32,523 nucleotides of DNA, taken from assembly GCA_005889225.1 (NCBI GenBank), contig VBEW01000056.1, positions 1-32,523 of the forward strand, in the 5' to 3' direction. The stretch's first letter is position 1; every line of letters begins with the position of its first letter. A model generated the notes under the pieces. It did no database searches. It worked only from the letters and a program-made list of their open reading frames with translations, and was not told the origin of the DNA. This document shows positions 3,737 through 30,230 of the stretch, piece after piece. The DNA is from Chloroflexota bacterium. Lineage in GTDB: Bacteria; Chloroflexota; Dormibacteria; CF-121. Both the position numbers and the translations under genes were made by a program.

Positions 3737-4516
3737 ATGGCAGGCCAGGTCCGGATCGGATGCTCCGGCTGGTCTTATCCCCACTGGCGCGGCGGTTTCT
3801 ACCCCGAGAAGCTGCCGGCGCGCGAGCACTTCGCCTTCTACGCGCGGCACTTCGACACGGTTGAGCTGAACAACTCCTTCTATCGGCAACCGCCCCCCGA
3901 GCGATTCGACGCATGGAGAGAGCAGGCGCCGGCCGGATTTCTCTTTGCCGTCAAGGGGAGTCGGTATGTCAGCCACATCAAACGCCTCGCCGTCGAGCAG
4001 AAGTCCATCGACCTGGTCGTCGAGCCCGCCGTCCGGCTGGGTGACAAGCTGGGGCCGATCCTGTTTCAGCTTCAGGCGAACTTTCACCTCGACCTGCAGC
4101 GGCTGACGCGGTTCGTCGGCATGCTACCGGCGGACCTCCGGTTCACACTCGAGTTCCGTCACGATTCCTGGCTGATCCCGCCAGTCCGTGATTTGCTTCG
4201 GACGCGCCGGATCGCGCTCTGCATTCCGGATCATCCAAAGATGACGAGGCTGTTCGAGATCACGAGCGACTTCACATATATAAGGATGCATCTGCCTGCT
4301 CAGGGGCTCGGCTATGGCAAGCGGGCTCTGCAGCCGTGGGCCGAACGGATTGCCGGCTGGAGCAGCCGCGGCGTCGACGTTTTCGTCTACTTCAACAACG
4401 ACATGGAGGGACACGCCATCGAAGACGCCCAAACGCTCAAGGATTTACTCGGCACGCAGGTTCTGCCGGAGTCGGGTGGCGGGAAGGCCGGGATTCGAAC
4501 CCGGGGAGCGGATTAA
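3737..4516 (+). CDS. DUF72 (YecE-like) TIM-barrel family protein
   Basis: This 259-residue protein opens with IGCSGWSYPHWRGGFYPEKLP (residues 6-26), the N-terminal signature of the DUF72/YecE family. Further family segments are FDTVELNNSFYRQP, FLFAVKGSRYVSHIKRL and the C-terminal VFVYFNNDMEGHAIEDAQTL. The family adopts a TIM-barrel fold and its biochemical role is not established. The gene lies 20 bp after the HNH gene and may be read through from it, but no promoter is evident. Its last 13 codons and stop (4477-4516) run through the tRNA-Ser(GCT) gene on the other strand. The conserved body ends near residue 245 (KDLLGTQVLP), so the tail is probably incidental and its own stop may have been lost. 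Confidence 0.9.
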   Translation: MAGQVRIGCSGWSYPHWRGGFYPEKLPAREHFAFYARHFDTVELNNSFYRQPPPERFDAWREQAPAGFLFAVKGSRYVSHIKRLAVEQKSIDLVVEPAVRLGDKLGPILFQLQANFHLDLQRLTRFVGMLPADLRFTLEFRHDSWLIPPVRDLLRTRRIALCIPDHPKMTRLFEITSDFTYIRMHLPAQGLGYGKRALQPWAERIAGWSSRGVDVFVYFNNDMEGHAIEDAQTLKDLLGTQVLPESGGGKAGIRTRGAD

Positions 4517-4571
4517 AAGCCCGCTCAAGCGCTTAGCAGGCGCTCGCATTCGACCACTCTGCCACCTCCCC
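4477..4571 (-). tRNA. tRNA-Ser (anticodon GCT)
   Basis: Read on the minus strand, the acceptor arms GGGGAGG and CCTTCCC pair with one G-U. They are followed by discriminator G and an encoded CCA (4477-4479). The anticodon stem AGCGC/GCGCT encloses loop CTGCTAA, giving anticodon GCT for AGC/AGU codons. A long variable arm (TTGAGCGGG...CCGCTC) marks a class II serine tRNA, and the T loop GGTTCGAATCC is canonical. Its 3' end overlaps the coding end of the DUF72 gene on the opposite strand. Confidence 0.97.
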
Positions 4572-7010: not shown

Positions 7011-7031
7011 CCTGCCACTCTGAGTGGCAGG
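7011..7031. other. Perfect inverted repeat in the cphB leader region
   Basis: CCTGCCACT (7011-7019), loop CTG, AGTGGCAGG (7023-7031) make a 9-bp perfect stem. No T tract follows on either strand, so it is not a standard terminator. It may be a protein-binding operator or a leader hairpin for cphB. A second short hairpin (GCCGT, five A, ACGGC) lies 21 bp further on at 7053-7067. Confidence 0.55.
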
Positions 7032-7109
7032 AAGATGTGACAGTGAGGCTATAAGATGCCGTAAAAAACGGCGCAGCGGTCGAATTGGAACGCCGGTACA
7101 CTGACGTGA

Positions 7110-8093
7110 ATGACAGACGCCTCGGCGCCGCTGCGACTGGCTCCCGCGACCGACGGCGGGCCGGTCGGGCCGGTGATGGTCATCGGGGGAGCCGAGGACA
7201 AGCTTGGCGAGCGCGTCATCCTGTCACGCTTCGTCCAGCTTGCCGGCGGCGCCCAGGCGCACATTGTGGTCATTAGCACCGCATCCTCGCTCGGCAACGC
7301 CGCGACTGACCTGTATCGCCATATCTTTGCTCGGGTCGGGGCCGACAGGGTGACCGGCTTGCGGCCCGAAACCCGCGAGGAGGCGAACGACCAGCGAACC
7401 GTCGACGCGCTCAAGGACGCGACCGGAATCTTCATGACGGGTGGCAATCAGCTTCGCCTCTCTTCGGTGATCGGCGGCACGAAACTGGGCGGCGCCGTTC
7501 TCGACGCCCACGGCCGGGGTATCGTGGTGGCCGGCACGTCGGCGGGCGCCAGCGCTGTGGCCACCCACATGATGGCGTTCGGCAGCTCCGGCGCGACGCC
7601 GAAACATCGGATGGCGCATGTCTCGGTCGGCCTCGGTCTGCTCGTCAACGTCGTCGTCGACCAGCACTTCGAGCAGCGCACCCGCCTCGGCCGGCTGCTG
7701 GCGGTGGTCGCTCAGTCGCCCTCGTTGATCGGCCTCGGGCTCGATGAAGACACGGCCGCGATCATCGATGCCAATGACATCCTCGAAGTCATCGGCCGCG
7801 GGTCGGTGACGATCGTGGACGGCTCCGACGTCGTCACCGACGCCTTCCAGACCAGCGGTCACAAACCGATGATGGTCTCGAACGCCCGTCTCCACTCACT
7901 TCCGTCCGGTTACCGATTCGACTTGCGCGCGCGGCGCGTCCTGCCGCTCGACGACAGCAAGAAGGAGCGTATCGCGCAGCTGGCGCAGAGCCGCATCGCC
8001 AGGCTGGTGCGCCAGACGGCAGCCGAAGGCCGCGACGACCGCGCGCTCGACCGCCGCCGCGCGCGGCATGAGGAGCGAAAGGCGTCGGAGTGA
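7110..8093 (+). CDS. cphB: Cyanophycinase
   Basis: This 327-residue protein is a serine-type exopeptidase of the S51-like CphB family that hydrolyses cyanophycin to beta-Asp-Arg dipeptides. Visible family signatures are VMVIGGAEDK (22-31), MTGGNQLRL (109-117), the nucleophile elbow GTSAGAS (142-148, Ser144), and DQHFEQRTRLGRL (184-196), which bears the conserved His186. The C-terminal tail of about 50 residues is rich in Arg and Lys and charged beyond the usual domain. The stop overlaps the GTG start of cphA (GTGA), so synthesis and degradation enzymes are translationally coupled. The start ATG at 7110 follows a long, structured leader. No secretion signal is present, which fits an intracellular enzyme for turning over stored polymer. 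Confidence 0.95.
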   Translation: MTDASAPLRLAPATDGGPVGPVMVIGGAEDKLGERVILSRFVQLAGGAQAHIVVISTASSLGNAATDLYRHIFARVGADRVTGLRPETREEANDQRTVDALKDATGIFMTGGNQLRLSSVIGGTKLGGAVLDAHGRGIVVAGTSAGASAVATHMMAFGSSGATPKHRMAHVSVGLGLLVNVVVDQHFEQRTRLGRLLAVVAQSPSLIGLGLDEDTAAIIDANDILEVIGRGSVTIVDGSDVVTDAFQTSGHKPMMVSNARLHSLPSGYRFDLRARRVLPLDDSKKERIAQLAQSRIARLVRQTAAEGRDDRALDRRRARHEERKASE

Positions 8094-10846
8094 GCGATTC
8101 GCGGATGGAGACGCGAGTCGAGCGCGACGAGGACGCCAAGCACGAACCTGTCGCCAGCAAGCCGCCCGTTCGTCCGGACCTGAGGATCCTCGAGAGTCAG
8201 GTGCTGCGTGGCCCCAACTACTGGTCGTACGAGCCGGCCGTCCGACTGCTCGTGGACCTCGGCTCACTGGAACACTGGCCATCGAACACGTTGCCGAAAT
8301 TTACCGATGTGCTCATCGAGATGCTGCCGGGCCTCTACGATCACGGCTGCTCGCTGCACCGGCCGGGCGGCTTCATCGAACGGCTCCGCGACGGGACCTG
8401 GATGGGGCATGTCGCCGAGCACGTTGCCCTGGAACTGCAGCGCGAGGCCGGCGGTTCGACCACCCGGGGGAAGACCCGGCGAGCCGGGATCCCCGGCCAA
8501 TACAACGTCGTCTACGGGTACAGCGAGGAGCAGGTGGGCCTGGCGGCCGGCAAGCTCGCGGTCCGCCTCCTCAATCACCTGGTGCAGGCCAACCCGACGT
8601 TCGATTTCGCCGCCGAGCTGGAGAGCCTCGTCCTGCTCGCCGACCGGGCGGCCTTCGGACCATCGACCCAGGCGATCCTCGACGAGGCCGCTCGCCGCGA
8701 CATCCCCTACATCCGGCTCAACGACCAGTCCTTCGTCCAGCTTGGCCAGGGGCGGTATCAGCAGCGGATCCGCGCCACGATGACATCGCGGACCTCGGCC
8801 CTCGGCGTCGACATCGCGGGCGACAAGAAGCTGACGACCACGCTGCTGGCCTCCGCCGGGCTGCCGGTGCCGAGGAGCGACATGGTCCGCTCCGCCGACG
8901 AGGCGACCGCCGTCGCCGCCCGCATCGGCTACCCGGTGGTCACCAAACCGCTCGACGGCAACCACGGCCGTGGCGTCAGCCTCGACCTGCGCAGCGATGA
9001 GGACGTCCGGCGCGGCTTTGAGCGCGCGATCGAGCAGACTCGCAGCGGCGTCGTGGTGGTGGAAAGTTTCATCCAGGGCAACGACTACCGGGTGCTCGTC
9101 ATCGACGGTCACATGGTCGCGGTGGCCCAGCGGGTCCCGGCCCACGTGATCGGTGATGGGGAGCATACGGTCCGTGAGCTGGTCGACATCACCAATCGCG
9201 ACTCTCGCCGCGGCATCGGTCACGAGAAAGTGCTGACCCGCATCAAGGTCGACAGTGCCGCTGAGGAGCTGGTCAGGCGACAGGGATTCGACCTCGATGC
9301 GGTGCCGCCTAAGGAAACCTTCGTCAAGCTGGCCGCCACCGGCAACATGTCAACGGGAGGGATCTCCATCGACCGGACCTGGGAAGCAGATCACGACAAC
9401 GTCGAAATCGCGGAGGAGGCTGCGCGGGTCGTCGGGCTCGATGTGGCCGGCATCGACTTCTTGACGCCCGACATCTCCCAGCCGGTCCGTGAAACCGGGG
9501 GCGCGATCGTCGAGGTCAATGCCGCGCCGGGATTCCGGATGCACACCCACCCCACGGAGGGCGATCCGCAGTACGTCGCCAAGGCGGTGATCGACATGCT
9601 GTTCCCGCAGGGCACGTCCGCCCGGATCCCGATCGTCGCCGTGACCGGCTCCAACGGCAAGACGACCACCGCCCGCATGATCGCCCACATCGTCCGAGGT
9701 CTCGGCCACCGGGTCGGGATGACGACCACCGATGGCATCTATATCGACGGGCGCCTGGTGAAACAGGCCGATGCCAGCGGGCCACGGTCGGCCCGGATGG
9801 TGCTGCAAAACCCGCGGGTCGACTTCGCGGTCTTCGAAGTCGCCCGGGGCGGCATCCTCCGCGAAGGCCTCGGCTACAGCGCGAATGACGTTGCGGTCGT
9901 TCTCAACGTGACCGGTGACCACATCGGCCTCAAGGAGATCAACTCCCTACGGCAGCTCGCCGCCATCAAGCGGGTCATCGTGGAAGCGGTCCCTCGCAGC
10001 GGCACCGCCGTGCTCAATGCCGATGACGAGCTGGTCGCCGATATGCGGACCCATTGCAGTGGCTCGGTGATTCTCTTCTCCCTGCGCGATGACAATGAGC
10101 TGGTTGAACGCTGGGTGCGGCGCGGGCGGAAAGCCTTCGTCATTCAGCAGCAGGCGGGCGGCGGCGAGATGATGGTGCTCCGCGAGGGGCGGCGCAGCAC
10201 GCAGATCGGCTGGGTCCACCTGCTACCGGCCACGTTCGAGGGCAGGGCCCGAGCCAACGTGCAGAACGCCCTGGCCGCCGCAGCGGCGGCGCACGCCGCG
10301 GGGGCGCATCTGCACGATATCCGGCAAGGCCTGCGCAGCTTCCACCCGTCGTTCGACGAGGCGCCCGGGCGGCTGAACATGTTCGAGCTGCACGGCGTGA
10401 AGGTGATCGTCGACTATGCCCACAACCCGCACGGGCTCGAGATGGCCGGTGACTTCGTCGAGCGGCTGACGGCGCCCGGCGTGAACGGGCCGCAGCCGGG
10501 CCGGCGGATTGCCGTGATCGCCACCCCCGGCGATCGGCGGGACGAGGACATTCGCGAGCTCGGTCGGGTGGCGGCTCGCGTCTTCGACGACCTCATCGTC
10601 CGCGAGGACGCAAACCCGCGTGGACGCCGGCGTGGTGAGATCGCCCAGCACGTCATGGAGGGGATCAAAGCGGCCGCCGGGAGCCGGGTCCAGCGCGCCG
10701 AGATCATCATCGATGAGCGGCCGGCCATCGACGCCGCGCTCAGCCGGGCGCGGCCCGGAGACGTCGTGCTGTTGTGCGTCGACAAGCCGGCCGACACCTG
10801 GCACAACCTCGAGGCCCGCCGGGCTCTGCCGGTCTCGCCCGCGTAG
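8090..10846 (+). CDS. cphA: Cyanophycin synthetase
   Basis: This 918-residue protein has the full three-part CphA architecture. The N-terminal domain (about 30-230) includes LRGPNYWSYEPAVRLLVDLG. An ATP-grasp domain (about 240-505) contains the GDKKLTT entry, YPVVTKPLDGNHGRGV and the metal-binding IVEVNAAPGFRMH. A C-terminal Mur-ligase domain has P-loop TGSNGKTTT (519-527), FEVARGGILREGLGY, LNVTGDHIG and DYAHNPHG (775-782). The ATP-grasp half adds Asp to the backbone and the Mur half adds Arg to side chains, building the nitrogen and energy polymer multi-L-arginyl-poly-L-aspartate. Length is normal for the family. The start GTG at 8090 overlaps the cphB stop. The gene converges on a CphA-like Mur ligase gene with a 28-bp gap. 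Confidence 0.96.
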   Translation: MSDSRMETRVERDEDAKHEPVASKPPVRPDLRILESQVLRGPNYWSYEPAVRLLVDLGSLEHWPSNTLPKFTDVLIEMLPGLYDHGCSLHRPGGFIERLRDGTWMGHVAEHVALELQREAGGSTTRGKTRRAGIPGQYNVVYGYSEEQVGLAAGKLAVRLLNHLVQANPTFDFAAELESLVLLADRAAFGPSTQAILDEAARRDIPYIRLNDQSFVQLGQGRYQQRIRATMTSRTSALGVDIAGDKKLTTTLLASAGLPVPRSDMVRSADEATAVAARIGYPVVTKPLDGNHGRGVSLDLRSDEDVRRGFERAIEQTRSGVVVVESFIQGNDYRVLVIDGHMVAVAQRVPAHVIGDGEHTVRELVDITNRDSRRGIGHEKVLTRIKVDSAAEELVRRQGFDLDAVPPKETFVKLAATGNMSTGGISIDRTWEADHDNVEIAEEAARVVGLDVAGIDFLTPDISQPVRETGGAIVEVNAAPGFRMHTHPTEGDPQYVAKAVIDMLFPQGTSARIPIVAVTGSNGKTTTARMIAHIVRGLGHRVGMTTTDGIYIDGRLVKQADASGPRSARMVLQNPRVDFAVFEVARGGILREGLGYSANDVAVVLNVTGDHIGLKEINSLRQLAAIKRVIVEAVPRSGTAVLNADDELVADMRTHCSGSVILFSLRDDNELVERWVRRGRKAFVIQQQAGGGEMMVLREGRRSTQIGWVHLLPATFEGRARANVQNALAAAAAAHAAGAHLHDIRQGLRSFHPSFDEAPGRLNMFELHGVKVIVDYAHNPHGLEMAGDFVERLTAPGVNGPQPGRRIAVIATPGDRRDEDIRELGRVAARVFDDLIVREDANPRGRRRGEIAQHVMEGIKAAAGSRVQRAEIIIDERPAIDAALSRARPGDVVLLCVDKPADTWHNLEARRALPVSPA

Positions 10847-17467: not shown

Positions 17468-18077
17468 GCCCAGCCTCTTGAAAGCGTCCCGCCGGAGCGG
17501 GGGACGGGATCTCCGCCACAGCGCCGCAGAGCGCCGCGATGAGGTCCTGCGGGCGGCGGTCGACGCGTTCGCGATTCACGGCCTGCATGGCACCTCGACC
17601 GAGATGATCGCGAAGCGCACCGGCATCTCCCAGCCGTATATCTTCCGGCTCTTCCCGAGCAAAAAGGACCTGTTCCTGGCCGCGGTGGACCAGTGCTTCG
17701 ACCGCGTCGAGGCAGCCTTTCGAAAAGCTGCGGAAAATCCGGACGTCGCCACCGCCAGCCATCATCTGGGCGGCTCGCCGGCCGACCGCCGGTTGCACGC
17801 GATGGGGCACGCCTATGTCCGGCTCGTCGCACACCGGGAGCTGCTCCTCTTTCAAATGCAGGCCTACGCCGCCTGCGCCGATGACGAAATTCGTCGCAAA
17901 GTCAAGCAACGATGGGAACGGCTGATGAAGGTCACTGCCGAGCTCAGTGGGGCGTCCCGCGACGAGCTCACGCTGTACTTCGCCCGCGGCATGCTGCTGA
18001 ATGTGGTGGCTTCGATCGGCCTCGTGCCGGAAGGCGCCGCGGATGCCTGGGGGCACAAGGCACTGGGCATCGGCTGA
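17466..18077 (+). CDS. TetR-family transcriptional repressor
   Basis: This 203-residue protein has an N-terminal TetR helix-turn-helix (about residues 22-70): RRDEVLRAAVDAFAIHGLHG, TSTEMIAKRTGISQPYIFRL and FPSKKDLF. The C-terminal all-helical ligand domain (about 85-200) is unlike others I can name. It is followed 62 bp later by a DHA2-type exporter gene. Two similar inverted repeats precede the two genes, so it probably represses both itself and the exporter until a toxic ligand is bound. The ATG at 17466 lies in operator 1 and at the predicted transcription start, consistent with a leaderless transcript. A start further downstream is possible, since the first 20 residues are basic and lie outside the domain. 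Confidence 0.93.
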   Translation: MPSLLKASRRSGGRDLRHSAAERRDEVLRAAVDAFAIHGLHGTSTEMIAKRTGISQPYIFRLFPSKKDLFLAAVDQCFDRVEAAFRKAAENPDVATASHHLGGSPADRRLHAMGHAYVRLVAHRELLLFQMQAYAACADDEIRRKVKQRWERLMKVTAELSGASRDELTLYFARGMLLNVVASIGLVPEGAADAWGHKALGIG

Positions 18078-18102
18078 CGGAATCTTTTTTTGGTCCGCGA
18101 AG

Positions 18103-18120
18103 TTATTGAGTAATCAGTAA
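18103..18120. promoter_or_regulatory. Operator 2 upstream of the DHA2 exporter gene
   Basis: TTATTGA (18103-18109), centre GTAA, TCAGTAA (18114-18120) match the core of operator 1 (TTAGTGA, ATAA, TCACTAA) with few changes and keep its spacing. It lies just before a strong AAGGAGG (18125-18131) and the exporter ATG. No clear separate promoter is visible, so it may act as an internal operator or as a roadblock. Confidence 0.65.
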
Positions 18121-18139
18121 TAGTAAGGAGGAATCGCTG

Positions 18140-19750
18140 ATGGCACCGAATCGCAATCCCTGGCCGGTCCTGCTGGTCACCGTCCTCGGCTTTTTCATGA
18201 TCATGCTCGACACCACGATCGTGTACGTGGCCACGCCGAGCATCCTGTCGAGCCTGCATGCGTCGCTCGACGAAGTTCTCTGGGTCTTCAACGGCTACCT
18301 GTTGACCTATGCCGTGCTCCTGATCACCGCCGGCCGGCTGGGCGACCTGTTCGGTCCACGGCAGCTCTTTGCGCTGGGACTCGTGGTCTTCACCGCTGCC
18401 TCCGCGCTCTGCGGACTGTCGACCGACGCGACCCAATTGATCGCCGCCCGCGTGCTTCAGGGTGTCGGGGGCGCGCTGATCGCTCCCCAGACGCTGACCA
18501 TCCTGATGGCGATCTTTCCACCGGAGCGCCGCGGCGCCGCCTTCGGAATCACGGGCGCGGTCATCGGCGTCTCCACGGTCGCCGGGCCGACCCTGGGCGG
18601 CCTGATCGTGACGAACTGGGATTGGCGCTGGATCTTCTTCCTCAACGTGCCGATCGGGATCCTGGCGCTGCTCGGGACGTTCCTCGTCATCCCCGATGTC
18701 CGGCCCGGGCGGCGTCACCGCCTCGATCTGATCGGGGTCGCACTCTCCAGCGCGTCGCTCTTTGCCATCGTGTTCGGCCTGATCGAAGGCCAGCGCTTCG
18801 ACTGGGGCACGATTTCGGGTTGGCTGTCCATCCCGCTGGTGCTCGCCGCCGGGGTCGTGCTCTTCCTCGCCTTCCTCGCGTGGGAACTGCGCCAGGCCGA
18901 GCCGCTCGTGCCGCTGCGGCTCTTTCGCGATCGCAACTTTTCCCTGATGAACTGGACCAGCCTGGCCATGGCCTTCGCCATGCAGGGCATCTTCATCCCG
19001 ATCACCATCTACACCCAGAGCGTGCTGGGGATGACGCCGTTGCAATCGGGACTGACCGTGGCGCCGATGTCCCTGATCGCGGGCATCCTGGCTCCCTTTG
19101 CCGGACGGTTTGCCGATCGGATCGGAGGCAAGTACCTGCTGATGGCCGGGCTCGCGATCTTCGGTGCCGGCGCCGGCGTCGTGACCCTGCTGGCCACGGT
19201 CAACGCGACCCAGGCGACGTTCATCCTGCCGTTCGTCCTGACCGGGCTTGGCCTCGGCCTGGTCTTCGCCCCGATGACGACCGTGGCGATGCAGGACATC
19301 AAGCCGGTAATGGCCGGCGCGGCCTCCGGCGTCCTCAACACCACCCGTCAGCTGGGCGCGGTGATCGGCGCTGCCGCGTTCGGTGCGATTCTCCAGAACC
19401 GGCTCGCAGTCTCGCTGCACGACCAGGCCCTGGCATCGGCGGGCCAGCTGCCGCCGGCGGTGCAGGGACGTTTTCTCGATGGCTTCACCCAGGCTGCCAG
19501 ATCCGGACTCCAGGTCGGCCGTGGGCAAACCGGCGCACAGCTTCCCGATGGATTGCCGGCACAGCTGGCCGGACGGATCGAGCAACTGATCCACGATGTC
19601 TTCGTCAACGGCTTCGTGATCGCCTTGCGGCCCACCGTCGCGGTTGCCGTGGTCGCGCTCGCGGCAGCCTCACTGAGCTGCCTGCTGGTGATCAACCGGC
19701 GGCCGGTGACCGTTGACGTGGCGGCGCCGACCGAGGCTGCGGTCGCCTGA
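18140..19750 (+). CDS. DHA2-family (EmrB/QacA type, 14-TM) drug exporter
   Basis: This 536-residue integral membrane protein of the major facilitator superfamily begins with the first helix VLLVTVLGFFMIMLDTTIVY (about 9-28). The LDTTIV motif is typical of the DHA2 family. Motif A appears as ITAGRLGDLFGPRQLF (62-77), and motif C-like Gly/Pro patterns lie around GAVIGVSTVAGPTLGG. Length and about 14 hydrophobic segments fit proton-driven multidrug export. A long extracytoplasmic stretch precedes the last helix (LAVSLHDQALASAGQLPPAV...), as in EmrB/QacA members. The start has an ideal AAGGAGG at a spacing of 8. Co-location with the TetR gene and operator 2 indicates induction by a substrate. The actual compound is not predictable. 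Confidence 0.94.
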   Translation: MAPNRNPWPVLLVTVLGFFMIMLDTTIVYVATPSILSSLHASLDEVLWVFNGYLLTYAVLLITAGRLGDLFGPRQLFALGLVVFTAASALCGLSTDATQLIAARVLQGVGGALIAPQTLTILMAIFPPERRGAAFGITGAVIGVSTVAGPTLGGLIVTNWDWRWIFFLNVPIGILALLGTFLVIPDVRPGRRHRLDLIGVALSSASLFAIVFGLIEGQRFDWGTISGWLSIPLVLAAGVVLFLAFLAWELRQAEPLVPLRLFRDRNFSLMNWTSLAMAFAMQGIFIPITIYTQSVLGMTPLQSGLTVAPMSLIAGILAPFAGRFADRIGGKYLLMAGLAIFGAGAGVVTLLATVNATQATFILPFVLTGLGLGLVFAPMTTVAMQDIKPVMAGAASGVLNTTRQLGAVIGAAAFGAILQNRLAVSLHDQALASAGQLPPAVQGRFLDGFTQAARSGLQVGRGQTGAQLPDGLPAQLAGRIEQLIHDVFVNGFVIALRPTVAVAVVALAAASLSCLLVINRRPVTVDVAAPTEAAVA

Positions 19751-25002: not shown

Positions 25003-25090
25003 TGGCGGAGGGAGAGGGATTCGAACCCCCGAAGGCTTGCACCTTAGTGGTTTTCAAGACCACCGCCATCGACCACTCGGCCATCCCTCC
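25003..25090 (-). tRNA. tRNA-Ser (anticodon TGA)
   Basis: Read on the minus strand, the acceptor arms GGAGGGA and TCCCTCC pair fully, with discriminator G and an encoded CCA (25003-25005). The anticodon stem GTGGT/ACCAC encloses loop CTTGAAA, giving anticodon TGA for UCN codons. The long variable arm (AAGGTGCAAGCCTTC) identifies a class II serine tRNA, and the T loop is canonical. It lies 26 bp after the stop of the preceding minus-strand gene and downstream of serS. Confidence 0.97.
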
Positions 25091-25833: not shown

Positions 25834-27093
25834 TCACCGAATCACCTCGAGCCCGCCCATGTAGGTGCGCAGCGCCGCGGGTACCCGGATGGTGCCGTCC
25901 TCCTGCTGGTAATTGTCGATGATCGCCACGACGGTTCGCGGGAGCGCGAGACCCGAGCCGTTGAGCGTGTGAACAAACTGCGGTTTGCCGCCCTTGTCCC
26001 GATATCGGATGTTGGCCCGCCGAGCCTGGAAATCACCGAAGTTGGAGCAGGACGACACCTCGAGATAGCGTTCCTCGCCTGGGCAGTACGCCTCGAGGTC
26101 GTATTTCTTCCACTGGGCGAACCCCATGTCGCCGGTGCACATCAGCACTACGCGATAGGGAATCTCGAGCTGTTGCAGCACGGACTCCGCGTCCTTGACC
26201 AGCGACTCGAGCTCCGCCATGGACGTCGACGATTCGACGAACTTGACCAGCTCGACCTTGTTGAATTGATGCAGCCGGATATAGCCTCGCGTATCCTTGC
26301 CCGCGGCGCCGGCCTCGCTGCGGAAGTTCGTCGACCAGGCGACGTGCTTCACCGGAAGGTTTTTGCCGTCCAGGATCTCATCGCGGTACAGGTTGGTTAC
26401 CGGCACCTCCGCCGTCGGGATCAAGAAGAAGTCCCGCTTCTCGACGCGAAACGCGTCCTCTTCGAATTTCGGGAGCTGTCCGGTCCCGGTCATCGACGCT
26501 CGGTTGACGAGCTGCGGGGGCAACACTTCGGTATAGCCGTGCTCGCGGATATGCAGGTCCATCATGAAGTTGAGCAGGGCGCGCTCGAGCCGCGCGCCGG
26601 CCCCCTTGAGAAACACGAATCGCGAGCCCGTCACCTTGACGGCCCGTTCGACATCGATGATGCCCAGCCGCTCGGCGAGCTCGTAGTGCGGGCGCATGGC
26701 GAACGTCGGGGCCTTGCGCTCCTTGAGTCCCCACTCGCGGACCGTCACGTTGCCGGTGGCATCACGTCCTTCCGGTACGGATGCGTCCGGCGGGTTCGGC
26801 ACTTCGAGCAGCAGGGCATTGAGCCGGCTCTCGATCGGGGCGGCTTGCTGCTCCAGCGATTTGATCTCATCCCGCATCCGTCGCAGCGCCTCGACCGCCG
26901 CCTCGTCCCGGTTCTTCGCCATCGCGGCGGATCGCCGGTTCTGCTCCGCCTTGAGTTGTTCGACTCTCGTGACCAGCTCACGGCGCTGCTGGTCGAGCTG
27001 CAGGATCTCGTCCACGGGCGCGGGCTCGCCCTTCTTGCGGGCGCCCTCCTTGACGAGATCCGGATGTTCGCGGATGAAGTTAAGGCTCAGCAT
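25834..27093 (-). CDS. serS: Seryl-tRNA synthetase
   Basis: This 419-residue class II synthetase charges tRNA-Ser, two of which are encoded in this window. The N-terminal long coiled-coil arm (about 25-100), which grips the long variable arm of tRNA-Ser, is visible as repeated charged helices ([20 protein letters not shown]). Motif 2 is [20 protein letters not shown] (from residue 257), and motif 3 is [18 protein letters not shown] (from residue 379). The active-site TAEVP lies at 227-231. Length is normal. The start ATG 27093 lies inside the end of lysS (14-bp overlap), so the two are probably co-translated. Confidence 0.98.
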
Positions 27094-28573
27094 GCCGGGC
27101 GCGCAAGTGCGGGAACAGGATCACATCGCGGATGGAGGGCTGGTCGGTCAGGATGGCCGCGAGCCGGTCGACCCCCAAGCCCATGCCACCCGTGGGTGGA
27201 AAGCCATACTCGAGCGCAGTCAGGAAGTCCTCGTCCATCGGATGGGTCTCATCGTCACCGGCCGCACGCGCCCGCGCCTGGTCTTCGAAGCGAGCCCGCT
27301 GATCGTCCGGGTCGTTCAACTCGGAGAAGGCATTGGCGATCTCCTCGCCGGCAATGAACAGCTCGAAGCGATCCGTCAGCCGCGGATCACTGGATCGCCG
27401 CCGGGCGAGTGGCGAGACTTCCACAGGATGTCCCAGGACGAAGGTGGGCTGCACCAGGGCGTCCTGCACGAGCTCCTCGAACAGCTCGGCGATCAGCCCG
27501 CCCCAGCCGGGCCCGGGCTTCGGCTCAATGCCGTGTTTCTTGATGAGCCCCTCTAACGTGGGGACATCGGCTTTGAGCAGGTCCTCGCCGACGACCCGGC
27601 TGACCGCCTCCACCATCTCGATCCGCGCGAACGGACGGGTGAAGCGGATCTCCTGCCCCTGATACTGAATGGTCGGGGTTCCCTTGACGCGCTCCACGAG
27701 GTGGATGACCAGCGATTCGGTGAGCTCGAGCATCCCCTCCACGTCGGTGTAGGCCTGATAGAGCTCCAGCATCGTGTACTCCGGGCTGTGCCACTGGTCC
27801 ATCCCTTCATTGCGGAAGATGCGGCCGATCTCGTAGACGCGGTCGTAGCCGCCGATGATCAGTCGCTTGAGGTACAGCTCCAGAGCGATCCGCAGGTACA
27901 GGTCCATGTCGAGCGCGTTGTGGTGCGTTCGAAACGGCCGCGCAGCCGCTCCACCCGCCAGCGCCTGCAGCACCGGGGTCTCCACCTCGGTAAAGCCCCG
28001 GCCCCGAAGGAATGTCCGCGTCTCCTCAACCAACCGGCTGCGCGCGAGGAAGACATCCATCACCTCGGGGTTGGCGATCAGGTCCAGGTAGCGCTGCCGG
28101 TAGCGGAGCTCCTTGTCCTTCAGCCCGTGATATTTCTCCGGCAACGGCCGGAGCGACTTCGCCAGCAGCACAAAGTCGTCGATCTCGCAGGTGATCTCGC
28201 CGCGCTTGGTCCGAAACAGCGTGCCGCGCACTCCGATGACGTCACCGAGATCGAGGTCCGTGAAGCGCCGGTATGGCTCGGCGCCCAGCTTATCGACCTT
28301 GGCGAGCAGCTGGATCCGCCCGCTGAAATCCTGGAGGTGGGCGAATGTCGCCTTGCCCATGACGCGTTGCGCGACCACCCGGCCGGCCAGCGCCACGCGC
28401 TCGCTCCGGGCCTCGGCACCGCCAGACTTTTCCACCTGCTCGAAGAGCGCAATCGCCTGCGCGGCGCTGTGCGTGCGGTCGAAGCGGCTCTGGTAAGGCT
28501 CGATACCCTGGGAGCGGAGCGTTTGCAGCTTCTGCCGTCGCTGCCGCTCCTGATCGGTCCGCTCGGCGTCCAT
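27080..28573 (-). CDS. lysS: Lysyl-tRNA synthetase (class II)
   Basis: This 497-residue protein has an N-terminal OB-fold anticodon-binding domain (about 55-150, with [20 protein letters not shown]) and a class II catalytic core. Motif 2 is [20 protein letters not shown] (247-266) and motif 3 is [20 protein letters not shown] (463-482), followed by DVILFPHLR. It attaches Lys to tRNA-Lys. Length is typical. ATG 28573 starts 38 bp after the FAD oxidoreductase gene. The gene overlaps serS by 14 bp. The greA-lysS neighbourhood is a widely conserved arrangement, and the interposed FAD gene is a lineage feature. Confidence 0.98.
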
Positions 28574-28611: not shown

Positions 28612-29766
28612 CTAAAGAATGTCGAAAGTGCGCGCCGTCATGGGACGATCGGGCCGGAATGGGTTGTCCTCAGCGCGCAGCGTGCCGGTGATCGCATCGA
28701 TCGCGCGCCGGCTACCGCCAATGCTTCCCATGATGCCGTGCCCGCTGTAGCCGGTGTTCACCGCCAGCCCGGGGATGGGTGTCGGTCCCAGCAGCGGTCG
28801 CCGGTCCGGGGTATACGTGTACTGCCCCGCCTGCAGCCACCACTGCAACCGCGCCGACCTCCAGACATCCTTCCAGAAGGGAGCGATCCGCGCCAGCGCA
28901 TGGTCGCTGCGCGGATCGAGCAGCCCGAAGGCAAACGCCGATGAGGTCGGGACCTCGTCGAGTGGTGGCTCAGCCGGCAACGGCGCCGTCCAGAGCGCGT
29001 GGGCGCCGCCGCCTGCCGGTCGCCAGTGCGCACCGGTTTCGAACTCGATAGTCATGGGTGCGCCGGCGGGCACCTGCGGTACGTCGGGAACGATCAACTT
29101 GTGCCGCCGCACCGTCGCCAGCGGCAGATCCAGGTCGGCAAGCTTCGCGAGCGGACCCGACAGCGGGCCGGCGGCGATCACGACCCAGTCGGCCCGCACC
29201 GGACCGGCGGTCGTGGTCACGCCCCGCACCCGGCCACCTTCCAGGATGAAACCGGTCGCCGTCACGCCGGTGTCGAAGCGGGCACCGCTCGCCCGCGCCA
29301 GCTCCAGGGCCAGCCGGCGTGGCTCGAGCCAGCCGTCACCCTGGCGAAAGCGGGCGTTCACGATATCCGGGGCCAGGTAGGGAAAGCGCTGCCGCGCCTC
29401 GGCGCCGCCCAGCAGCTCGACATCGGTCAGCCCCCACTGGCGCTGCGCCGCGGCCAGGTTCGCCTGGATCTGCGCGCCCTCATCCGTCCGGGCGACGAAC
29501 AGGTAGCCCTGGTGGAAAAGGCCCACATCCACGCGCTCGTGAAGCTCGTCGAAGAAGGCGACGCTTTCCCGAACCAGCTCGACTTCTTCCGCGTTGTCGA
29601 ACTGCAGCCGGAAGGCGCCGGTCGCCACCGGCGTGGTGAGCGTCGCCAGCGCCGGCCGCTTCTCGAGAACGCGCGTGCGAAGCCCGGCGCGCTCCGCAAA
29701 CAGCGCGGTCGCGCAACCGATGATCCCCCCACCGATGACGACGAGGTCGGCGGCGTCGGCCGCTAG
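28612..29766 (-). CDS. FAD-dependent oxidoreductase (DAO/sarcosine-oxidase type) without a usable start codon
   Basis: The coding frame is open from about 29820 to the stop at 28612. The FAD-binding strand DLVVIGGGIIGCATALFAER, followed by VLEKRPALATL, is encoded at about 29630-29750. The rest (GDGWLEPRRLALELA, TGYSGHGIMGSIGGSRRAID) fits the amine or amino-acid oxidoreductase family of DadA/SoxB type. Between the in-frame stops at 29821-29826 and the glycine motif there is no ATG, GTG, TTG or CTG. The first canonical start is GTG 29628, which would remove the FAD motif and yield 338 residues. The boundary given (CTA at 29764-29766, just over the greA stop) is only where homologous proteins would begin. 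A real frameshift, an ATC start, a -1 shift out of greA, or an assembly error could explain this. The gene is otherwise intact. Confidence 0.75.
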   Translation of the reverse strand, partial: LAADAADLVVIGGGIIGCATALFAERAGLRTRVLEKRPALATLTTPVATGAFRLQFDNAEEVELVRESVAFFDELHERVDVGLFHQGYLFVARTDEGAQIQANLAAAQRQWGLTDVELLGGAEARQRFPYLAPDIVNARFRQGDGWLEPRRLALELARASGARFDTGVTATGFILEGGRVRGVTTTAGPVRADWVVIAAGPLSGPLAKLADLDLPLATVRRHKLIVPDVPQVPAGAPMTIEFETGAHWRPAGGGAHALWTAPLPAEPPLDEVPTSSAFAFGLLDPRSDHALARIAPFWKDVWRSARLQWWLQAGQYTYTPDRRPLLGPTPIPGLAVNTGYSGHGIMGSIGGSRRAIDAITGTLRAEDNPFRPDRPMTARTFDIL

Positions 29767-30230
29767 CGGACCTCGACGATCAGCATCTTGGTGGACCCAC
29801 CCGGCGTCAGCACCGAGACGTCATCACCGACCCGCTTGCCCAACAGGGCCTTGCCAACCGGCGACTCCAGCGAGATCCGACCTTTGCTGGGCTCCGCCTC
29901 CGCCGAGCCGACGATCGTGAACGCCTCGTCGCCGTAGTCGTCGTGGACCTTGACGGTGGAACCGACTTCCACCACGCCCTTGGCGTGCTTGCCCTCGATG
30001 ATGCTGGCGTTGCGGATCAACTTTTCCAGCAAAAGGATGCGGCCCTCGACGAAGCCCTGCTCATTCTTGGCATCGTCGTATTCGGCGTTTTCATTGATAT
30101 CGCCGAACTCTTTCGCCTGCCGGATTCGCTCGGCGACCTCGGCGCGGCGCTTGTTACGGAGCACCTCGAGCTCCGCCTGCAGGCGGTTCAGGCCCTCCTG
30201 GGTGATATAGACGACCTTGTCGTTTTCCAT
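29763..30230 (-). CDS. greA: Transcript cleavage factor GreA
   Basis: This 155-residue protein has the N-terminal coiled coil with acidic tip typical of GreA: EGLNRLQAELEVLRNKRRAE, IRQAKEFGDINENAEYDDAK and NEQGFVEGRILLLEKLI. The tip residues Asp and Glu in GDINENAEYDDAK stimulate transcript cleavage in paused RNA polymerase. The C-terminal FKBP-like domain ends LESPVGKALLGKRVGDDVSV...LIVEVR. ATG 30230 is chosen, since the longer reading to 30575 is antisense-like and without domain character; GGGAG lies 5 bp upstream. A consensus -10 TATAAT and a hairpin precede it. The stop TAG abuts the start-less FAD gene. Confidence 0.97.
   Translation of the reverse strand: MENDKVVYITQEGLNRLQAELEVLRNKRRAEVAERIRQAKEFGDINENAEYDDAKNEQGFVEGRILLLEKLIRNASIIEGKHAKGVVEVGSTVKVHDDYGDEAFTIVGSAEAEPSKGRISLESPVGKALLGKRVGDDVSVLTPGGSTKMLIVEVR

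Follow-up and report, generated by a model that had tools for sequence, protein, structure and literature searches.

A greA-linked oxidoreductase gene without a canonical start codon in soil Chloroflexota: translation probably restarts at the stop codon of the preceding gene

A gene for an FAD-dependent oxidoreductase that directly follows greA in a group of soil Chloroflexota has no canonical start codon, and its translation probably restarts at the greA stop. On balance we consider it likely that this is a real, selected gene, whose product would be made as a separate protein from a GCG codon by termination-reinitiation coupled to greA. A re-initiated product had been named in an earlier note on this DNA (the sequence-only reading) as a thing to seek, and it appears to be the best reading of the junction described below.

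The window, that is the whole stretch of 32,523 nucleotides that was analysed, carries on its minus strand an open frame (28612-29826) whose translation, RLGADAGWVHQDADRRGPLAADAADLVVIGGGIIG..., meets no stop until 28612-28614. The sequence-only reading had described this frame as open from an in-frame TGA TGA (29821..29826, minus strand), as it indeed is, and codon-by-codon reading bore out its central claim that no ATG, GTG, TTG or CTG lies between this double stop (29826-29821) and the GGGIIG motif. The earliest canonical start is a GTG at codon 46 (29628-29626, minus strand), which we judge not to be the true start because it comes after the FAD-binding motif and lacks conservation. The frame was also rightly said to be -1 relative to greA and to cross its stop, the overlap with the greA TAG (29765-29763) being one base. 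The proposed start codon, GCG (29761..29763, minus strand), shares its first G with this TAG, and the gene (28612..29763, minus strand) has 383 codons when counted from GCG up to its stop (28614-28612). Its product has both features that define the DAO family, an N-terminal GxGxxG and the Pfam DAO domain (PF01266, E=2.8e-49, residues 6-352 counted from GCG against profile positions 1-348 of 353). No NCBIfam equivalog scored above its cut-off for this protein, and the nearest model, glycine oxidase ThiO, was far below it.

The upstream partner, greA (29763..30230, minus strand), encodes 155 amino acids ending in ...MLIVEVR before its TAG (29763..29765), and its identity is given by Pfam GreA_GreB_N/GreA_GreB and by the NCBIfam GreA equivalog PRK00226. 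A Shine-Dalgarno-like GAGG is present in the 3' end of greA (29771..29774, minus strand), 7 nt before GCG. The next gene of the apparent operon in the list of open reading frames (27080..28573, same strand) is one which we take, from its translation alone, to be lysS-like (lysyl-tRNA synthetase). The window also contains two tRNA-Ser genes on the minus strand, at 25006-25090 and 4480-4571, with anticodons TGA and GCT.

The window belongs to a draft genome (G000) of 296 contigs (2.92 Mb). An assembly error was one of the options that the sequence-only reading had proposed, along with a recent mutation. We searched 18 genomes of the order for homologues of the oxidoreductase; the related genomes are metagenome-assembled from soil and labelled ‘Chloroflexi bacterium’. 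The junction was readable in 13 greA-linked copies: 12 from 11 species of the window's genus, one species having two, and one from G017, which belongs to another genus. These copies align from codon 1 onward. All 13 lack a canonical start, so the missing start exceeds chance, and its presence in 12 species of two genera rules out both a misassembly and a mutation of recent date. Every copy has an in-frame stop upstream of GCG, and no ATG, GTG, TTG, CTG, ATT or ATC was found between that stop and GCG in any of them; an ATA occurs 58 codons upstream of GCG in one species. Downstream, canonical starts are scattered, the first one lying anywhere from codon 14 to none within 80 codons (G001). The species with two copies, G008, has two greA-oxidoreductase loci (L005 on C199 and L046 on C232) with identical junctions and different oxidoreductase bodies, one of which is near that of G002; these might reflect duplication, recombination or a chimeric bin. 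We left the second copy, G008b, out of most counts because it may be a chimera of a G008a-like greA end and a G002-like oxidoreductase.

The lack of a canonical start might be taken as a sign that the gene is decaying or is an artefact, with its start lost and the enzyme either not made or made from GTG at codon 46. However, the frames are full-length in nearly all species, with 71-92% identity (G013 has an in-frame deletion), and dN/dS over codons 2-46 is about 0.12 (NG86, pooled pairs), compared to 0.10-0.17 in the remaining gene. Codons 2-46 are thus under purifying selection similar to that on the rest of the gene, which indicates that they are translated, and GTG at codon 46 is missing in many species. 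We therefore regard decay or artefact as extremely improbable; the absence of the start is confirmed, old and selected.

Synonymous variability points to the junction itself. We scanned 311 codons (the last 111 of greA and the first 200 of the oxidoreductase) in 9-codon windows, and the lowest values were found at the junction (0.10-0.13); the twelve lowest windows (0.10-0.17) all span or touch it, compared to 0.34 in greA and 0.47 in the oxidoreductase. On the greA side, codon -4 is GAG in 12 of 12 species and is followed by GT in all, with TAG likewise invariant. On the oxidoreductase side, codon 1 is GCG in all 12 species, and among codons 1-4 only GCG is common to all copies. The invariance of GCG by itself is modest evidence, as the 12 species are related and one other alanine column is codon-invariant too: among the 27 always-alanine alignment columns listed, a single codon is kept in one (GCC) and GCG is kept throughout in none. 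In that alignment G017 is shifted by one column, and the column with 11 GCG and one GCC corresponds to codon 1 of the other species. Conservation of the nucleotides at the junction might also reflect another role, for example as a regulatory site.

It is plausible to ask whether a different codon near the junction serves as the start, either the ATC in VVIGGG, which the sequence-only reading had suggested, or another of codons 1-4, or no fixed codon at all within a few nucleotides of the stop. Weak initiation at ATC is known, and the pheA gene of this genus appears to use this codon. On the other hand, the position of the ATC differs among relatives (codon 8, 9 or 10), G017 has none before the motif, and starting at ATC would cost the protein its conserved ADLVV strand. 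There is free variation at codons 3 and 4, and one species has ACC as codon 2, whereas GCG is constant. Such an alternative start thus seems quite unlikely: the proposal of a non-canonical start holds, its identification as ATC does not, and GCG is the most likely candidate. Where exactly among codons 1-4 translation would begin is read from this comparison of sequences.

In all 13 copies GCG, as the first codon of the frame, sits at -1 or 0 nt from the greA TAG. Nine copies, including the window, have the overlapping arrangement GAGGTCCGC-TAG-CGGCC (TAGCG, in which GCG shares one base with TAG), and four (G011, G014, G002 and G017) have the abutting arrangement GAGGTCCGC-TAG-GCGGCC (TAGGCG), which is in frame with greA. 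In trees of the oxidoreductase, both protein and DNA, G000 with its TAGCG is nested within a TAGGCG clade that also holds G011 and G014 (support 87-100), which implies at least two changes of the frame relation to greA. Three changes were counted on the best maximum-likelihood trees; the count was made by hand, without the possibly chimeric G008b, and the deeper nodes are poorly supported. GCG was retained through these switches, and the frame relation is, as observed, dispensable.

These observations bear on another option of the sequence-only reading, a GreA-FAD fusion produced by a -1 ribosomal shift. As a more general explanation, recoding would yield a GreA-oxidoreductase fusion by -1 frameshifting in the TAGCG species and by TAG readthrough in the TAGGCG species. 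In its favour, both frames continue past the junction without a further stop, and in the four abutting copies the two genes share a frame and are separated by one TAG only. However, two distinct recoding events would be needed in close relatives, and the gene was kept although its frame relation switched at least twice with GCG fixed, which argues against either type of fusion; a fusion would not easily survive such changes, to which a start at GCG is indifferent. No in-frame X_XXY_YYZ heptamer is shared in the last 20 codons of greA (the only one is in G017, where no shift is needed), and RNA folding at the junction does not exceed that of shuffled sequence (z 0.43, single sequence), the consensus fold of the junction being without covariation support. 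The combination of a conserved frame relation and a signal, by which programmed frameshifting or readthrough is recognised, was thus not found. TAG is an ordinary stop, ending a third of genes (142/435), and its reassignment was rejected for the same reason. We consider a fusion very unlikely.

The explanation that we prefer, reinitiation at GCG, would proceed as follows. Some ribosomes would stay on the mRNA after finishing greA, the GAGG in the greA 3' end may assist these post-termination ribosomes, and they would reinitiate on the GCG next to the greA stop with the initiator fMet-tRNA. We infer the reinitiation, the use of fMet and thereby the N-terminus of the protein. One might argue instead that GAGG directs de novo initiation at GCG, independently of ribosomes arriving from greA. 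The motif is conserved and well spaced, at 7 nt from GCG or 8 nt in the TAGGCG species. Nevertheless, GCG has two mismatches to AUG and should support ordinary initiation only very weakly, and the distance between stop and start is held at -1 or 0 nt, as coupling predicts; de novo initiation therefore appears rather unlikely.

Two possible causes of start selection on GCG were considered and rejected. An altered initiator tRNA is not indicated, because the one initiator-like tRNA (among 36 tRNA hits, of which the six lowest-scoring were untyped) looks ordinary, with anticodon CAT and three G-C pairs. Loss of IF3 is not indicated either, as IF3_C was detected in 18/18 genomes and the IF3 sequences look ordinary. 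Thus, no special initiation apparatus was found. A literature search restricted to open-licence papers returned none that describes GCG as a natural start codon in bacteria.

As to the origin of the junction, homologues that do not abut greA have ordinary ATG or GTG starts, 15-20 codons further upstream. In G015, which represents a related genus (g2) of the same family, greA and the oxidoreductase gene are adjacent and about 0.2 kb apart, and the latter has its own ATG. The simplest history, and a likely one, is that a deletion of the spacer and the old start in an ancestor of the other species joined greA to the oxidoreductase gene.

When about 1.2 Mb of stretches from G000 and G003 was scanned for codon usage, other genes with coding signal and no canonical start came to light. 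One of them encodes an alpha/beta-hydrolase (L262, G000:C77 about 17375-16551, minus strand; relatives L263-L275) and directly follows a gene ending in ...RAQIDTGE*. A GCG is invariant in the 13/13 readable genus members (13 species), at a distance from the upstream stop that varies from 4 to 7 nt, so that all three relative frames occur. This start is less certain, because the genus also keeps a constant ATC nine codons further on, which is not conserved in G016. In pheA, for prephenate dehydratase (L210-L220, G000:C9 about 930-1844), ATC is found in 11/11 genus members where G015 has ATG, and since this ATC is closely preceded by a TATAGAGT-like -10 box, the pheA mRNA may be nearly leaderless. 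An NAD-dependent epimerase gene after metK lacks a canonical start in both G000 and G003 (L182 about 17921-19061 and L158 about 7025-8128); in both there is an ACG in the last codons of metK, 7 nt after a GGAG, and conservation of ACG and GGAG could be explained by metK coding. In most family members rlmN (L279-L291), which overlaps the stop codon of the preceding gene, is without a canonical start; ACT GAx is preceded by GCG, ATA or ACA in different species. As the frame of rlmN is +1 to that of the preceding gene at TGA, a +1 frameshift would be another possibility there. Furthermore, an lspA-like gene of G000 (L135, minus strand) has an apparent CTG start within a CTGA overlap, and a hemL-like gene of G003 (L155, minus strand) has no ATG, GTG or TTG near its N-terminus and possibly uses ATC.

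The second GCG gene and the other startless genes suggest that start selection in this lineage may be relaxed. A wider reading can be put forward tentatively, although we find it somewhat doubtful: that GCG is a genuine, repeatedly used start in this Chloroflexota lineage, where post-termination ribosomes would restart on a non-NTG codon near the stop and coupled genes (greA-oxidoreductase, the alpha/beta-hydrolase pair, possibly rlmN and the metK-epimerase pair) would dispense with a canonical start. A few startless genes were also seen in the control (0.4 Mb of G039), so a lineage-wide excess is not demonstrated. The control also contains a DsbA/FrnE-like gene (L252 about 18010-18589, plus strand) with an in-frame TGA in FSDYV*PWCY, a possible selenocysteine codon.

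Bacterial gene finders assume ATG, GTG and TTG starts and, rarely, CTG, ATT, ATC or ATA. Genes with starts like the one proposed here would be shortened or overlooked in annotation. The retention of GCG as first codon by twelve species, in either frame relation, suggests that ribosomes can be less strict in choosing a start after termination, and the greA-oxidoreductase junction may offer a compact, naturally replicated test case for what a reinitiating ribosome needs.

Among known systems, the closest are termination-reinitiation pairs at TGATG overlaps, e.g. trpE-trpD (Huber et al. 2019, 2023; PMC6728339, PMC10666635, PMC12548453). Stop/start overlaps of -1 nt are classic reinitiation sites (PMC10666635, PMC6728339) and one of the two commonest types of gene overlap, and efficient coupling requires such proximity (PMC10666635); a Shine-Dalgarno motif is usual in the upstream gene (PMC6728339). 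The greA-oxidoreductase pair resembles these systems in its geometry (-1 or 0 nt in 13/13 copies), in its same-strand arrangement and in the conserved Shine-Dalgarno-like GAGG in the upstream gene, a feature that is common and not essential in such pairs. It differs in the restart codon, which is GCG in all copies instead of the usual NTG, and in that coupling is here read from sequence alone. Because of this restart codon we speak of a mechanism like termination-reinitiation and not of a standard member of that class. As for the protein itself, it is like other DAO-family FAD oxidoreductases (PF01266) in having the full domain, here from residue 6, and its N-terminus is shorter than in the homologues that do not abut greA.

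A second comparison is with natural non-canonical starts in bacteria, namely AUU in infC and pcnB of E. coli, and AUA in infC and ccpN and AUU in cvfC1 of S. aureus (PMC13009471). The likeness lies in the pairing of a conserved weak start and a Shine-Dalgarno motif, by which expression is probably kept low; in the greA-linked gene the non-NTG codon is conserved in 13/13 copies and selected codons (2-46) lie upstream of the first canonical start of the window. Those starts are one mismatch from AUG, whereas the greA-linked GCG is two. Finally, in reinitiation at calicivirus VP1/VP2 an AUG restart codon is not essential and non-AUG restart near the stop occurs (PMC4848598), although in that system the ribosomes are eukaryotic, a dedicated RNA element upstream (TURBS) takes part, and the native restart codon is AUG.
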